From: Bacteroidota bacterium
Lineage (GTDB): Bacteria > Bacteroidota > Bacteroidia > NS11-12g > UBA9320
NCBI GenBank assembly: GCA_013359235.1
Contig: JABWCE010000003.1
Coordinates: 1-64,000, forward strand
Direction: 5' to 3'
DNA length: 64,000 bases
Shown: positions 14,132-49,620 of the stretch, in pieces
Position numbering within the stretch: the first letter of the stretch is position 1
Layout: each line of letters starts with the position of its first letter
Notes under the pieces: generated by a model
The model's input: only the letters and a program-made list of their open reading frames with translations
The model's database searches: none
Told to the model about the DNA's origin: nothing
Made by a program: the position numbers and the translations under genes

Positions 14132-17100
14132 ATGGAAAATAAAAATAAATACTGGAAAGGGATAGAAGAAGCAGAACTACACTCAGATTTTATAAAATCA
14201 AAGGGCAACGAATTCAGTGAAGCATTACCTGTTGAGGAAATGCTTTCTACAATTGATTCTGATTTATCATCAAACCGTAGAGATTTTCTTAAATTTTTTG
14301 GATTTAGTGTTTCGGCTGTTGCACTTGCAGCATGTAATAAAGCACCTGTGAAATTTGCAATTCCTTATGTTGAAAAACCACAAAATGTTACACCTGGTAA
14401 TCCAAATTATTATGCATCAACTTGTGCAAGCTGTACAAGTGGTTGTGGCATGATTGTTAAAACACGCGAAGGAAGACCAATTAAACTTGATGGAAGCAAC
14501 GAATCTGCAATATCTGCAGGAGCACTTTGTGCCGTTGGTCAAGCAGGTATTTTAACAATGTATGATATAAACAGGCTTGCAAATCCATTAGAAAATGGCG
14601 ATGAACAAACAGATTGGGCAAAAATTGATAAAAAAATTTCATCAAAATTAGCATCAATAGCTGCAACTTTTGGAGGCATCAGAATAGTTACACCTACAAA
14701 CAACAGTCCCTCATTTGCTAATGCTGTAAATATTTTTAAGCAAAAATACCCTACTACAGAAGTTATAACTTACGATTCGATTTCTTATTCAGGAATTTTG
14801 CTTGCAAACGAAAAATCTTTTGGCAAAAGAGTTATTCCAAATTATAATTTTGATAAAGCTGATGTAATAGTTTCATTTGGAGCAGATTTTTTAGGAACTT
14901 GGATTTCGCCTGTTGAGTACACAAAAAAATGGACTAAAAATAGAAACCCGAAAAACGGTACGATGTCGAGGCATTACCAGTTTGAATCTATTCTTACATT
15001 AACCGGTTCAAATGCTGATATTAGAATTCCAATGAAAGAATCTAAGGAAGGCATTTATATAATTTCACTATATAACGAAATTGCAAAACTTGCCGGTGTG
15101 GCACAACTTGCAGTAACACAAAATGCAGAACTTGCAGGAAATGCAATTAAAAATTCTGCAAAAGATTTATTTGCCGCAAAAGGAAAATCAATTGTTGTAT
15201 CAAAATCAAACAATCCCGAAATACAAACAATTGTAAACGGAATAAACATGATGTTGGGAAATTATGGTACAACTATTGATATAGATAATTTTTCAAATCA
15301 ATCAAAATTTGTAGAAGCAGATTTTGAAAAATTTGTATCAGAACTAAGCTCAGGTACAGTAAAAGGCGTAATTTTTGTAAATTCAAACCCGGTTTATTCT
15401 TATCACAACTCTTCAAAACTTACTGAAGGATTGAAAAATGCAGAACTTGTAATTTCAACTTCAATAACAAAAGACGAAACCGGAAGTTTAGCCGGATTTG
15501 TTTGTCCCGACAACCATTTTCTTGAAAGTTGGGGAGATGCAGAACCAAAAAACGGATTAATATCATTTACACAACCAACTATTTCACCCGTATTTAATAC
15601 TCGTCAAGTTATTGAATCTCTACTTACATGGGCGGGTGCAATGCCAGAAAATGCAAAAGCATACAATTTCGTAAAATCAACTTGGTCATCGTTAGGAGAT
15701 GATGTATGGAACAAATCAATACACGATGGAGTATTGATCAAGCCTGACCTTCCTGCAACAGTTCCTTCATTTGTTGCAAACCTTGCTGATAGTGCAAATA
15801 AAATAATATTTTCATTGCCCAAAGGCGATGAAACAGAATTAATACTTTACCAAAAAGTGGGACTTAGAGATGGTTCAATGGCTAATAATCCATGGGTTCA
15901 TGAACTTCCAGACCCAATTTCGAAAGTTTGTTATGACAATTATCTTTCAATATCAAAAGCCGATGCAGAAAAAAATGGTTTCGAACAAAATGATGTTGTA
16001 AATTTATCGGTAAATGGAATTTTGATAAATGAAATTCCTGTATTAGTTCAACCAGGACAAGCAAAAGGAACTTATGCAATAGCATTAGGATACGGAAGAA
16101 CACAAACAGGCAAAGTTGGAAAAAATTTAGGTAAAAATGCGTATCCATTAGTAAGAACAGAAAATGGATATTATTCTTATAACTTTTGCGGACTAATTAC
16201 ATTTGAAAAAACAAGAAAAAAATACTCTCTTGCACAAACACAAACTCATCATACAATAGAAGGCAGAGATTACATTCGCGAAGCAAGTTTAAATCAATAT
16301 AAAAAGAACCCATCTGTAAAAAATGATGAAAAACTAAATTTAATTTCTCTTTGGGAAGGATTTGATTATACAAAGGGACATAAATGGGGAATGGCTATAG
16401 ACCTCAACAAATGCACAGGATGCGGTTCGTGTGTTGTGAGTTGTCATATTGAAAACAATGTACCTGTTGTAGGCAGAGATGAAGTTTTACTCAGACGTGA
16501 AATGCACTGGATGCGTATTGACAGATATTACAGTTTTAATGATGATGGAACGGCTCTTACAAAAGAAAAACAAATTGATAAGGCAGATGCTTCAGTTTAT
16601 GAAAATGTTTCTGTAGTAAATGCTCCAATGATGTGTCAACATTGTGACCACGCCCCTTGCGAAACTGTATGTCCTGTATTGGCTACCACTCATGCAAGCG
16701 AAGGAATAAACCAAATGACATATAATAGGTGTATAGGTACAAAATATTGTGCTAATAACTGTCCATACAAGGTTCGCCGTTTCAATTGGTTTAAATTTAA
16801 TGATAACGACAAATTTGATTTTCATTTCAATAATGAATTAGGCAAAATGGTTATAAATCCTGATGTAACAGTTCGTCATAGAGGTGTAATGGAAAAATGC
16901 AGTTTATGTGTTCAAAGAATACAAGCTGGAAAATTGACAGCCAAGAGAGAAAATCGCAAATTGGTTGATGGCGAAATACAAACTGCTTGCTCTGCCGCAT
17001 GTCCGTCAAACGCAATAGTATTTGGAGATAAAAACGACCCTAATAGCGAAATTTCAAAACTTTTCAAAGATGAAAGATCATATCACATGCTTGAAGAAGT

Positions 17101-38396: not shown

Positions 38397-41300
38397 TTAA
38401 AACAATTTTTTAATAGCCTTACTTGATTTTTCTTTTAGTTTAGCAGAAATTATTATCATTGCTGGCACTAAAATAAGTGTAAGAAAGGTTGAAAATCCAA
38501 GACCGAAAATCATAGTCCAACTCAAAGGACCCCAAAAAGCAACACTATCACCTCCAAAAAATATATGAGGATTTAACTCTGTAAACATTTTTACAAAATC
38601 AATATTCATACCCACTGCCAAAGGTACTAAGCCAAGAATGGTAGCCGATGCTGTAAGTAGAACGGGAGTCATTCTTATTCTTCCTGCTTCAATAACAGCT
38701 TCTTTCAATTGCCAGCCTTGTGCAATAAGATGGTCTGTAAATTCTACTAATAAAATGCCATTTCTTACAACAATTCCGGCAAGTGCCACTATACCTACCC
38801 CAGTCATTACTATCGAAAAATCCATTCCAAAAATTGCATTTCCAAGAAATACACCTATGATGCTAAATATAATTTCGGTGAGTATTATTACAGGGCGACT
38901 TATAGAGTTGAACTGTATTACTAATATAAGTATAATTAAACCAATTGATGACAATAAAGCACCAGCTAAAAACTCGCCGGTTTCTATTTGCTCTTCTTGT
39001 TCGCCTCCCATTTTTATGGTTACATTGTCGGGTTTGGGAAAAGATGCTACGGCTTCGCTTACAATTGCTACAACTTTATTGGCATTATAATCACTCAAAA
39101 CATTAGAAGATATTGTAACTAACCGCTTTTGATTTTTGCGTTTTATACCTCCATAAGTGTTGCTGTAATGTATATTTGCAACAGAGCTAAGTGGTATTTG
39201 TCTCACCATACCTCCCATGTTCATATCTCTATACGAAATTTTAAGGTTCAATAATTGGTTTATATTAGTTCGTTGGTCAACACTGTACCTGAGTTGTATT
39301 GGGTATTCGTCATTGTTATCTTTAAACTTTGATATTTCTTTACCATAAACTGCTGTTCTTATTTCTGAACCAATTTGACCTGTGCTTATTCCTTCGCGAT
39401 TGGCTCTTTCGCGGTCTATTTCTATTACAATTTCTGGTTTGTTATTTACCAAATCTGACTTCAATTCTTCAACACCTTCAATATTTATACTGTCAAGGTA
39501 ATGTTTAAGGTTATTGCTGGTTTGAATTAATTCATTAAAATCTTCACCTGCTATTTCAATACTTATTGGTTTGGCTGTAGGTGGTCCGTTGTTTTCTTTA
39601 CTTACTGTAATAGCTGCACCCGGAATACCCCTTACTGCTTCTCTAATTTTCTCAAGGTATTTTTGTGTTGAAACTCCATTTCTTTTGCTATATTCAACAA
39701 AAGAAACCGAAACTTTGCTTTTATTGCTTGCTACGCTCCTATCGTTTTCCTGTGGGTCTGATGCACCAAGGGCTACATTCGAAATTACAGATTCAACTAT
39801 CGGATTGTTTTTGCCTAAAACTTTATAAATTCTATTTTCTACTTCTTTAGTTATTTCGTCAGTATATTTTTGATCAGTACCTACCGGCAGCGTAATGTAT
39901 GTATAAACGAAGTGAGGCTCAGAGCTTGGGAAAAATACAACATTTGGTTTGGTAACAATTAATAAAAATATTGAAAAAATAAATAAACCGAGTGTTCCAA
40001 ACAATAATTTTACAGGTCTTTTGCCATAAATGCACCATTGCAATATTTTAGCATATCCATTTTGAATTGAGGGCCAAGTTTTGTTTTGAAATTTCTCTAT
40101 AACATTTGTAAGTAAATATTTATTAATTAAAAACAATAGAAGCATTGTAATTATAAAATTTCCACCTCCAAAATTGCCTGTAATATATAATATCAAAGCA
40201 ATGCAACTAAATATTATCGAAATCATTTTAGTACCCTTTCTGCTTTTTTTCTTCACCTCAACATCATCAGGGTTTTGATGAGGTTTCATAAATTGTACTG
40301 CAAATACAGGATTAATAATATAAGCCACCAATAGCGAAGCAAGTAATGTAATAATTAATGTAACGGGCAAAAAGTACATAAACTTACCAATTATTCCCTG
40401 CCAAAAAGCCAATGGCACAAAAGGTGCGAGGGTTGTCAAAGTACCCGAAAGTACCGGTATAAAAACTTCGCCAGTTGCTTTTTTTGCTGCTACTTTTATA
40501 GGTACTTTTCCATTGTCAAATATTCTGTGTGTGTTTTCTATAACTACAATAGCATCGTCAACTACAATACCAAGTGCCAGCAGAAACGAAAACAATACAA
40601 TCATATTAAGACTGAAACCTAATGAAGGGAATACCAAAAATGCAATAAATGTAGATAGAGGTACCGAAAGAGCTACAAAAATTGCATTTGTAGTACCCAT
40701 AAAAAACATTAGAATTAAAGTTACCAAAATAAACCCTATAACAATTGTATTGATTAAATCGTGAAGTGTATGTCGGGTATCGGTACTTTGGTCGCCGGTT
40801 AAAACAATATTCAGGTCTTTTGGAAAGCTTGCGTTTTTCAGGTCATCAATTATTGCACGGCATTTGTCGCTGGCTTCAATTAAATTTTCGCCCGAACGCT
40901 TAATAACATTTAGAGTAATTACATTTTTATTGTTCAATCTTGCAAAACTTTCTTGTTCTTTATACGAATCTTTTATTGTTGCAATATCTCTAAGGTACAC
41001 CGTTGAGCCGGTCATTCCTCTTACAACAATGTTTTTAATTTGCTCAATATTTTTAAACTCGCCTGATACGCTTAACGAACGTTGCATATTGTCCATTTTT
41101 ACGTTACCGCCAGCTATTCTAAGATTTTCATAAGCTATTGCACTTTCAATATCTCTGAGTGTTATGTTTGAAAGTTCCATTTTATACATATCAACATCAA
41201 TTTGTATTTCGCGGTCTAATGCTCCAACTATATCAACTCTTGTTATTTCTGGCAATGCCTCAATTTTTTCTTCGGCTTGCTCGGCATATTTTTTAAGCTG

Positions 41301-47065: not shown

Positions 47066-47440
47066 ATGGAAATTCAAGGTAGATTAATTACAAAATTACC
47101 CGAACAATCAGGTACAAGTGCAAAAGGAGAATGGAAAAAACAAGATGCCGTAATAGAAACACTTGAGCAATATCCCAAAAAAGTTTGTATAACTTTTTGG
47201 AGTGATAAGGTAGATGAGCTAAAAAAAGTTAATGACGGAGAAACAATCAAAGTGTATTTTGATATTGAATCACGCGAATACCAAGGCAAATGGTACACAA
47301 ACATCAAAGCATGGAAATTTGAACTTAGCGAAAAAAGCAATTTGCAAAATAACAACTCAGAACCTATAACCCAACCTGTAGCTGAAGAATTTGAAAATTT
47401 AAACAATTCTGATAACAGCATTGATGATTTGCCGTTTTAA
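47066..47440 (+). CDS. DUF3127 OB-fold-like protein with SSB-type C-terminal tip
   Basis: About 124 residues from ATG at 47066 (MEIQGRLITKLPEQSGTS); the TTG at 47057 adds three residues. The body matches DUF3127, a small single-domain family of Bacteroidota, with KGEWKKQDAVIETLEQYPKK, KVCITFWSDKVDEL and YTNIKAWKFEL. The pattern resembles an OB fold. The linker is polar and Asn-rich, and the protein ends in NSIDDLPF, which is the conserved partner-binding tip of single-stranded DNA-binding proteins. A role in DNA metabolism is therefore suggested by architecture and by the adjacent ung, but is not shown. Confidence 0.85.
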   Translation: MEIQGRLITKLPEQSGTSAKGEWKKQDAVIETLEQYPKKVCITFWSDKVDELKKVNDGETIKVYFDIESREYQGKWYTNIKAWKFELSEKSNLQNNNSEPITQPVAEEFENLNNSDNSIDDLPF

Positions 47441-47485
47441 AAGAGAAAAAAAATATTTATTGAACTTAAAATTATAAATAAGCCA

Positions 47486-47514
47486 ACTTATCCTCGTTGC
47501 AAACGAGGATAAGT
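47486..47514. repeat. REP-like palindrome, remote copy of 351-379
   Basis: Perfect 11-bp arms ACTTATCCTCG and CGAGGATAAGT around the loop TTGCAAA. It shares arm length, loop length and the CCTCGTnGCAAACGAGG core with the palindrome beside the transposase at 351-379. Between the copies, the fourth pair changes from A-T to T-A, a compensatory change. It lies 46 bases past the DUF3127 gene stop. Confidence 0.75.
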
Positions 47515-47570
47515 GATGGGGTTAATTAAGGAACTCCAGTTTGAAATCACTGTATTAAAGAAAAAACACA

Positions 47571-47691
47571 TTTGAACAGGGTTTGAACGTGAATACTCTC
47601 TCTTTTATACCCCTTAGTACCTCTTGTTCAACTACCGTTCAAGTAAATGAACCACGTATGAACCTATTTGTAACCTATTGGACATTTCGTT
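47571..47691. repeat. 11-bp-phased array of TGAAC/GTTCA half-sites
   Basis: TTTGAAC occurs at 47571 and 47582, GTTCAA at 47626 and 47637, TGAACC at 47648 and 47659, and AACCTATT at 47661 and 47672. All four pairs are exactly 11 bases apart, and the start points of the first three share one 11-base register (the gap 47582-47626 is 44). The order is two forward, two reverse, two forward half-sites. It is located 80-200 bases upstream of the promoter of the T9SS gene. Confidence 0.6.
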
Positions 47692-47772
47692 TTGCTTTTA
47701 TTTTCTGCAAAAAAATTTATCTCCCTTATAATTAGGATTTTCGCACAAAATTATTTATTTTAGTTTATACAT

Positions 47773-47805
47773 TTTGTTTTTCCCCACTTAACTATATTAT
47801 TTTTG
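47773..47805 (+). promoter_or_regulatory. Promoter of the islet T9SS gene
   Basis: TTTG at 47773-47776 and TATTTTTG at 47798-47805 are separated by 21 bases, matching the Bacteroidota -33/-7 pattern. The -7 element covers the first possible TTG start at 47803, so translation must start at the later ATG 47851. Confidence 0.65.
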
Positions 47806-47850
47806 TTTATCATTTTTAAAAAAATCATAAATTTAATTAGTTCTTTAAAT

Positions 47851-49338
47851 ATGAAAACAAATACCAAATCTTTGGGCTTCTTGGCGATAGCTGCCAAACC
47901 AAAACTGTTAGCTACTGTGAATAGCTGCAGAAGCAGAAGGAGTTTTTCTTTACTGCCTATCACATTGGCAGTATTGTTTTTCTTAAAAAGTACAGATGTG
48001 AACTCTCAATCCGGTAGCTCTGACACAAGCATTCCAATGCTTCGTCAGTTTGAAGTAAAATCAGCTGCTTTTGACAAGATGTTCAATAGCAACCTGCTTA
48101 TTTTTACATACACTAGAGATGTGACAGTTTTAAATGGTGTGAACCTAACTCCTGGTGTTAGGGTTTTATTTATGGACAAAAAAACTGGTCAGGTTATGCC
48201 TGCTCCAAAAGCTTTAACAAATGCTAAACATGTTTATATGTATGAAGGTAAACTCTTCTACAAATTAGACAGCACTAGTATTTATAGCTACGACCTTAAA
48301 AATGGCAGTATCAAGCTTTTACTTGCTACAAAAAGCCAAATTATAGGATTTTGGAACATGAGCAACGACCGTATTTTGGTTAACGTCCGAAACGGTGGAG
48401 TTGTAACCATGCCTTTATCCTTAACATCTAGAGCCACATCTCGTCTTGCAATTTATAATTACGAGACAGGTGAAACTATAGATATTTCAAACGAACCAAA
48501 TATTTACCAAGCATTTAGTGTTGGTGAAAAAATTGTGTTCTTTGAATCAGGTTACTGGTTTAATAAACCAGGTGTGTCATTTCGTGCAAACGTTTATGAT
48601 CCCGCAAATGACAAGGTTTACTCTAGAACCGACTTTAATGCCATAGGTTTGAATATCCCAACCTCCGACTCAACATTTATCCTTTGGTACGATCCTGTAC
48701 AAGGTGGTGGACGGAGAATGGCTGTGGTTAATGTTAACCAAGATTTAAACGGAACAACCTTTAACAGGGAAGATCGTTTAACAATGAGTGGTTTCTGGGC
48801 TCCTCCTATTGCTGGTAAGGATGGCGATATTGACCCCGCCTCTCCAAGTCCTTATTTCATGAATAATGAAATGGTTACTGGTGGTAATTGGTGGATTCAA
48901 AATCTAAAAACCAACGAGGTTAACAACAGACCCTATGACGAAGTTTGGGCAATGAACCTATCAACTTTTACTACTTCTTTTGTTGGTAAGTATCGCGACT
49001 ATGTTCGTGATTGGCCAATAACTGAAGGTTATGTAATTGATGGCAGGTTTGTTTCACCTGGTACTAATTGGTTTTACACAACTAAACTTTATGGCGAAAC
49101 TGGTGCAGTAAAAAACACCAAAATAGCCGGAGTCAGTGTTTACCCAAACCCTGCAGTTGGTTACACAACTGTTGATGTGCCTGAAAATGCCGATGTTGAA
49201 GTTTACTCTGTGACTGGTCAGTTGGCCTTTTCACAGAAGGTCTTCAACAGCGCACAAATACCTGTTAATTCAGGTATCAATATAGTAAAAATCAGTACTG
49301 GTAACCTAACCCAAACACTTAAAGTGATTGGGTACTAA
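47851..49338 (+). CDS. Secreted beta-propeller-like protein with T9SS tail, GC-richer than neighbours
   Basis: A 495-residue protein from ATG at 47851; the upstream TTG at 47803 falls in the promoter. The signal peptide is unusually long: about 30 charged or mixed residues (KTNTKSLGFLAIAAKPKLL, with RSRR) before the core SLLPITLAVLFFL and a cut near VNSQ (about 56). The next 370 residues show repeated four-strand units of a propeller (VYMYEGKLFYKLD, IYSYDLKNGSIKLL, LAIYNYETGETI, ANVYDPANDKVY). The type A sorting domain is at the end (VYPNPAVGYTTV, QTLKVIGY). Codons are richer in G/C than in neighbours, which suggests recent transfer. Function unknown. Confidence 0.82.
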   Translation: MKTNTKSLGFLAIAAKPKLLATVNSCRSRRSFSLLPITLAVLFFLKSTDVNSQSGSSDTSIPMLRQFEVKSAAFDKMFNSNLLIFTYTRDVTVLNGVNLTPGVRVLFMDKKTGQVMPAPKALTNAKHVYMYEGKLFYKLDSTSIYSYDLKNGSIKLLLATKSQIIGFWNMSNDRILVNVRNGGVVTMPLSLTSRATSRLAIYNYETGETIDISNEPNIYQAFSVGEKIVFFESGYWFNKPGVSFRANVYDPANDKVYSRTDFNAIGLNIPTSDSTFILWYDPVQGGGRRMAVVNVNQDLNGTTFNREDRLTMSGFWAPPIAGKDGDIDPASPSPYFMNNEMVTGGNWWIQNLKTNEVNNRPYDEVWAMNLSTFTTSFVGKYRDYVRDWPITEGYVIDGRFVSPGTNWFYTTKLYGETGAVKNTKIAGVSVYPNPAVGYTTVDVPENADVEVYSVTGQLAFSQKVFNSAQIPVNSGINIVKISTGNLTQTLKVIGY

Positions 49339-49344
49339 AATATT

Positions 49345-49373
49345 AGTCCCGAACGTATGTGAGGGGCTTTTTT
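49345..49373 (+). terminator. Probable terminator of the islet gene
   Basis: AGTCCC pairs with GGGGCT (one G-T pair) across a 12-base loop, followed by TTTTT, 7 bases past the stop. Confidence 0.5.
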
Positions 49374-49520
49374 ATACTGTCACGTCCTAAAAAAAGTTTA
49401 CAGTTTTTTAATGATAATCCTGATAAAAATTTACAATTCATAATTAATCCTGAATTGGGTTCACAAATGAATTTTTTCTTTTAAATTAAGTTATTTAACT
49501 TTCATTTTTTTGGTCCATTT

Positions 49521-49540
49521 TTTACACTTTTTTGTGTAAA
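49521..49540. repeat. Short hairpin between the islet gene and clpX
   Basis: TTTACAC and GTGTAAA form a 7-bp stem around TTTTTT. It is in the 282-base gap 49339-49620, which otherwise has no gene. This may be a clpX terminator on the minus strand, 80 bases past its stop. Confidence 0.35.
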
Positions 49541-49620
49541 CATATTTTATGACTATACAGTTTCAAAATAGCAATTGGATGGCAAAATATCACCAAAACT
49601 ATAAATAGCTAAAAAATTTT

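Follow-up and report, generated by a model that had tools for sequence, protein, structure and literature searches.

Introduction

Tandem sites of the Pho-box type consist of 7-base direct repeats separated by a 4-base gap, which gives them an 11-base period, and the operators of PhoB/OmpR-type regulators share this format with the intergenic array described here. The array differs from such operators in having half-sites in both orientations, in ending 94 bases short of the nearest promoter-like site and in having no second site in its genome.

A further point of comparison is provided by site-specific recombination. As summarised in a section of a published study, Bacteroidetes integrases with an arm-binding domain have been placed in the IntCTnDOT subgroup, and the CTnDOT enzyme binds subterminal arm sites (PMC8138268). 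The arm sites of this subgroup (CTnDOT, NBU1 and related elements) resemble the array in being short half-sites about one helical turn apart and arranged in more than one block, whereas the locus of the array has no integrase gene, no core site and no element ends. Intergenic tandem repeats are also known from another Bacteroidota genome, that of Porphyromonas gingivalis, as the BrickBuilt MITE, which part of its description presents as 23-base units in 1 to about 23 copies, with a leader, a tail and predicted long stem-loops (PMC4596501). Set against that part of the description, the array has 11-base phased half-sites and no unusual fold.

Anatomy of the array

Positions 47571-47691 of the window (the whole stretch of 64,000 nucleotides that was analysed) hold an intergenic stretch of about 110 bases with seven copies of a half-site placed one helical turn apart (Table 1). 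Read 5' to 3', the array opens with a direct pair, which a 37-base spacer separates from an inverted pair; a direct triple closes it. The sequence-only reading had reported four repeat pairs at a spacing of exactly 11 bases, and this was borne out for all four, which were located by direct reading and by script: TTTGAAC (starts 47571/47582), GTTCAA (47626/47637), TGAACC (47648/47659) and AACCTATT (47661/47672), the copies of the latter overlapping the direct triple. The seventh, weaker half-site is GTAACC at 47670. It had also been proposed that the first three pairs lie in one 11-base register. Their starts do agree modulo 11, so that the claim is correct as arithmetic, but the outcome varies with the trimming of each string, as different motif letters are compared. 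Measured by the shared core TGAAC (47573/47584 and 47648/47659), the blocks differ in register by 9 modulo 11. An inverted repeat spans the spacer, with 17-base arms that are 37 bases apart and 76% complementary, and the G+C content of the array (0.37) stands against 0.29 and 0.18 in its flanks.

Table 1. Positions, within the window, of the array's parts and of neighbouring features.
Feature	Position	Strand	Basis
DUF3127 protein gene, upstream neighbour	47066..47440	+	ORF, Pfam
Palindrome, perfect over 13 bases, with a loop of 3 bases; resembles a minus-strand terminator	47486..47514	.	Recurrence at dispersed places in the genus
Direct pair TTTGAAC-N4-TTTGAAC, half-sites 1 and 2	47571..47588	+	Reading, script, pattern search
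Spacer of 37 bases, repeat-free, between direct and inverted pairs	47589..47625	.	Reading
Half-sites 3 and 4, inverted pair GTTCAA-N5-GTTCAA (minus strand reads TTGAAC)	47626..47642	-	Reading, script, pattern search
Direct triple TGAACC-N5-TGAACC-N5-GTAACC, half-sites 5 to 7	47648..47679	+	Reading, script
Promoter-like site TTTG-N21-TAnnTTTG, upstream of the candidate cargo gene	47773..47805	+	Computed match to consensus
Gene of a 495-aa secreted protein, downstream neighbour	47851..49338	+	C-terminal sorting domain PF18962

The phasing was evaluated with a score that sums exact runs of at least 6 bases at spacing 11 over a 121-base segment. The array segment scores 28, and the next-best segment of the 64-kb window, scanned in 121-base segments with a step of 5 and at spacings 5-30, reaches 22 at spacing 18 near 15100. 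Neither 3,000 dinucleotide shuffles of the segment (0/3,000) nor 40,000 first-order Markov segments taken at any spacing from 8 to 30 (maximum 25) attained 28, and identity at shift 11 is 0.45 where 0.27 is expected. As the shuffled and Markov segments never reach this score, and the flanks have no comparable peak of identity at shift 11, the 11-base spacing can be regarded as real. The array is not among the repeats listed by Tandem Repeats Finder at a minimum score of 30, and the genome has no general excess of 11-base repeats, the array being one of two non-coding cases in 460 kb. Elsewhere in the window, a period-18 repeat at 15061-15240 is the second-strongest short-period signal.

A hairpin or terminator in RNA was considered at the array and rejected, the predicted folds of the two strands being no stabler than those of shuffles (z -0.26 and -0.07), and a search of Rfam returned no match near its cut-off there. 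Because the half-sites are intergenic, helically phased and present in both directions, a multi-site protein-binding array would be their natural reading.

Genomic context

The array had been described as lying upstream of a T9SS gene. This stands in so far as the downstream gene encodes a cargo-like protein and fails for the secretion machinery: the product is a candidate T9SS cargo, and not a part of the secretion machine, because its sole Pfam match is the C-terminal sorting domain, at 24.8 bits and thus below the cut-off of 27. Matches to this protein in 39 relatives cover its C-terminal part only, from query residue 344 onward, and residues 31-400 have no relative in 394 other Bacteroidia genomes. 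The gene is an orphan, with 370 residues lacking a relative and a G+C content of 0.386 against 0.31 for the window. Over the window as a whole, the + strand has three matches to the Bacteroidota-type promoter consensus, TTTG-N21-TAnnTTTG, and the last half-site lies 94 bases upstream of the nearest of them.

Conservation of the array at the same place in related genomes was sought and dismissed, as the gene order of relatives differs and, of 58 clpX and DUF3127 loci, only that of the window itself matched the interval 47450-49610. On this comparison the interval is unique to its genome; the gene order is broken on both sides of it with respect to relatives, in which the DUF3127 gene and the candidate cargo gene are not neighbours. 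Plasmid and phage records gave only short, weak matches to the DNA of the region.

The palindrome listed in Table 1 is a neighbour of the array, 57 bases upstream of it, which does not imply membership in it. Palindromes around TCCTCGTTTGCAACGAGGA recur between genes across the genus, in the manner of a REP-like element or a shared terminator (window 47486-47514; G000:C33:162075-162116; G000:C9:21949-21976; three places in G002:C110; G004:C2; G006:C7), and some of them are followed by a second palindrome ending GCAACGCAAA.

Tandem repeats upstream of arm-type integrases

A profile search with PF13102 in 108 genomes of the order gave matches in 68, and 97 loci were used. The integrase gene was unparsed in 30 of these, which were dropped. 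Among the 67 loci counted, a repeated 7-mer was found at spacing 11 in 25, at spacing 10 in 15 and at spacing 12 in 10, compared with 0, 0 and 3 of 19 Xer-type controls. In a second, non-redundant count, 34 of 95 loci were unparsed and dropped, and the remaining 61 were reduced to 50 by removing 11 near-duplicates. Tandem 7-mers at 10, 11 or 12 bases within -200..+30 of the integrase were present in 31 of these 50 (18, 14 and 6 at spacings 11, 10 and 12), where shuffles predict about 0.8 loci per spacing, and the 13 Xer-type controls included none at 10 or 11 and two at 12. These repeats are putative arm sites, which the adjacent integrase would bind.

Within the genus, six of the eight arm-type integrases that were read have exact repeats of at least 7 bases at spacing 11 near the gene, and one integrase (L197) has no such tandem repeat near it. 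Across the arm-type integrases with this spacing the motifs vary. The eighth, which is the only arm-type integrase encoded in the array's own genome, is accompanied by repeats unlike those of the array, TTGTAC at spacing 12. One contig of the genus, reached by searching with a looser pattern, carries an arm-type integrase (L030:1760-2980), directly before whose start codon stand two copies of ATATGTAAACC at spacing 11; half-sites GTAAAC, TTTGAACC and TGTAAACC, again at spacing 11, lie beyond an apparent tRNA 3' end. On this contig (G002:C103), the two arm-site-like blocks flank the apparent tRNA 3' end, as would element ends meeting at a tRNA gene. Further afield, three Bacteroidales integrases have pairs of GTTAAACC or TGTAAACC at spacing 12. 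Eight phage and plasmid stretches were fetched, one of which, with its integrase almost at the end of the record (L355), lies outside the count. Bacteroides phage BT-TP2, which has an annotated integrase, carries tandem pairs in two blocks that lie no more than about 230 bases upstream of the integrase, and a spacing-12 pair close to the integrase start was found in three of the six other records.

The combination of a direct and an inverted pair was searched separately, as a 6-mer repeated at 10-12 bases whose reverse complement, likewise repeated at 10-12, comes no more than 90 bases later. Of the 95 integrase loci, two have this layout (L139 and L189, in both cases at most about 200 bases before the integrase). 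It is absent from 396 kb of the array's own genome outside the window and from 400 kb of two relatives, and among the 58 clpX and DUF3127 loci it is present in the window's own only. Within the window, the search returned the array and, besides it, a single AT-rich case at 40437. At a control spacing of 14-16, each 400-kb sample yielded one locus and the integrase loci yielded none; the absolute numbers in this comparison are low (two integrase loci).

A proposed orphan cluster of arm-type sites

We favour, tentatively and at somewhat less than an even chance, the explanation that the half-sites of the array are orphaned arm-type sites of a tyrosine recombinase (integrase): the integrative element to which they belonged would have departed, leaving this remnant of its attachment region behind. 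It is favoured because, in the nearest bacteria, clusters of this kind are demonstrably located just before arm-type integrase genes. As long as an element is intact, several integrase molecules would use their N-terminal arm-binding domains to occupy half-sites one helical turn apart, and these integrase-bound half-sites, near the crossover site, would tie the DNA into the recombination complex. The array would once have been bound by an arm-type integrase, whose gene would since have been lost.

Consistent with this explanation, the array consists of tandem half-sites of about 7 bases at a spacing within 10-12, and these resemble half-sites found beside integrases, namely at the L030 element end and at the three Bacteroidales integrases. 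The uniqueness of the interval 47450-49610, with gene order disrupted on either side of it, likewise speaks for this explanation, whereas the different repeats of the genome's one arm-type integrase speak against it. Against it, most integrase loci have all copies in the same direction, the layout with an inverted pair being as rare as 2 in 95. No integrase gene or fragment was found on the contig of the array, all four PF00589 matches of the genome lying on other contigs, as do the two PF13102 matches listed out of three. A duplicated core site or a second element end was not found in the genome, where the region recurs only as the palindrome and an AT-rich leader; very short repeats could be missed by this comparison. 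A scan of viral contigs for the right half of the array returned nothing; for its last triple there was a single viral-contig match, located within a long coding frame.

Competing explanations

The sequence-only reading had proposed a multi-site operator. The phased cluster of half-sites in both directions agrees with this proposal, but its assignment to the T9SS gene is unsupported. That a single regulator, OmpR/PhoB-like or other, would control the candidate cargo gene or another neighbour through the array appears unlikely, even though the array precedes a gene with a promoter-like site and includes the 7-base direct repeats with a 4-base gap of Pho-box-like tandem sites. That format applies to 47571-47588, the GTTCAA and TGAACC pairs being matches of 6 to 7 bases. 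Tandems at 10-12 bases are also typical of the DNA upstream of arm-type integrases in these bacteria, an alternative that the sequence-only reading did not raise. The distance from the half-sites down to the likely transcription start would moreover be roughly 130-240 bases, which is long for the OmpR/PhoB class, and the candidate cargo gene has no relatives, in the 394 other genomes, in which conservation could be compared. The expectation that the regulator would have further targets was contradicted, TTGAAC-N5-TTGAAC having two matches in the genome, both in the array. As the paired motif is confined to the array there is no sign of a regulon, although regulators with a single target are still compatible with this result. 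A looser triple pattern, allowing up to two mismatches, has seven matches in the genome against three for a reversed control, and all except the array itself carry two mismatches. That short words of AT-rich DNA have fallen into this pattern by chance is highly improbable. It is true that the strings were picked after the sequence had been seen and that single TTGAAC-N5-TTGAAC pairs are common, at least one being present in 210 of 395 genomes sampled evenly from the class; yet none of the 40,000 Markov segments reaches the score of the array, which is also the best of the window over spacings 5-30.

Arrays with the same half-site exist elsewhere, and the array could belong, as the only member in its genome, to a loosely defined family of intergenic TTGAAC/GTTCAA arrays with 11-base units, maintained or spread as a repeat or MITE-like element and with no role in recombination, a possibility that we consider somewhat unlikely. 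TTGAAC-N5-TTGAAC occurs 57 times in Prevotellamassilia timonensis An873 (reversed control 0), 21 times in Chitinophaga sp. CF118 (control 3), 13 and 6 times in two Bacteroidetes MAGs (control 0 in each) and three times in Pedobacter cryoconitis (control 1). Since these five genomes were picked by pattern match, their scattered arrays show existence and not frequency. Wherever arrays in the five genomes are mixed, TTGAAC comes first and GTTCAA second (11/11), as in the window, and the arrays of P. timonensis and Chitinophaga share with the window's array the half-site, the spacing and a mostly intergenic position, generally flanked by genes that are unrelated in kind. In P. timonensis, three places carry identical copies of the unit TTGAACAGGGTTTGAAC, and the dispersed palindrome near the window's array is in keeping with a repeat family. 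By contrast, those arrays are present in many copies with regular units, whereas that of the window is single and degenerate, its units being less alike than those of P. timonensis; none was found in 396 kb of its own genome sampled beyond the window, where a family of this kind would have several copies per genome. In addition, the phase between the two orientations differs among genomes, and only 4 of the 395 class genomes have six or more matches, the control maximum being 4. It is very unlikely that the half-sites are iterons that an integrated plasmid or phage left behind as former binding sites of its replication initiator. Similar 11-base TTGAAC arrays do lie within phage genes, with a DUF1376 match in two of the three examined, one of them below the cut-off, but there is no known initiator gene near the array, the array is not within a gene, and the likeness in layout may be convergence.

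Some features of these other arrays are recorded here in their own right. Many-site intergenic 11-base TTGAAC arrays are present in P. timonensis An873 (G488), Chitinophaga sp. CF118 (G489), G410 and G492/G354, and no integrase was seen beside the scattered arrays in the loci read. Several of the Chitinophaga arrays have a common flank, GTGAGTCTAT, as a mobile repeat would. Among the GTDB species genomes, the whole TTGAAC layout was found in 16 stretches, where our own estimate of the expectation is about one. Viral contigs gave 11 stretches at spacing 11, of which eight look like one phage family, against controls of four at spacing 10, three at spacing 12 and two for an anagram motif. In three viral contigs (L243:2389-3132, L237:3187-4050 and L242:5716-6492), 11-base TTGAAC/GTTCAA arrays are located inside phage replication-type genes, where what may be origin iterons inside an initiator gene encode an 11-residue peptide repeat.

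Implications

In the literature covered, consisting of titles and the openings of abstracts, with most subscription papers outside its scope, we found no description of an array of this type and none of 11-bp arm sites in Bacteroidetes. The array could represent an undescribed class of intergenic arrays in Bacteroidota, in which phased TTGAAC half-sites converge on a spacer and would be bound by one conserved protein, the window holding a solitary member; this we regard as rather doubtful. The TTGAAC half-site format may be common to the arm sites of integrases and to phage replication iterons.

For this order of Bacteroidota, a practical rule emerges: most parsed arm-type integrase genes (31/50) have tandem repeats at 10-12 bases just upstream. 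If the array is indeed an orphan cluster of arm-type sites, such arrays would be footprints of departed mobile elements that are missed by gene-based searches, and their spacing would offer a simple way to find them.
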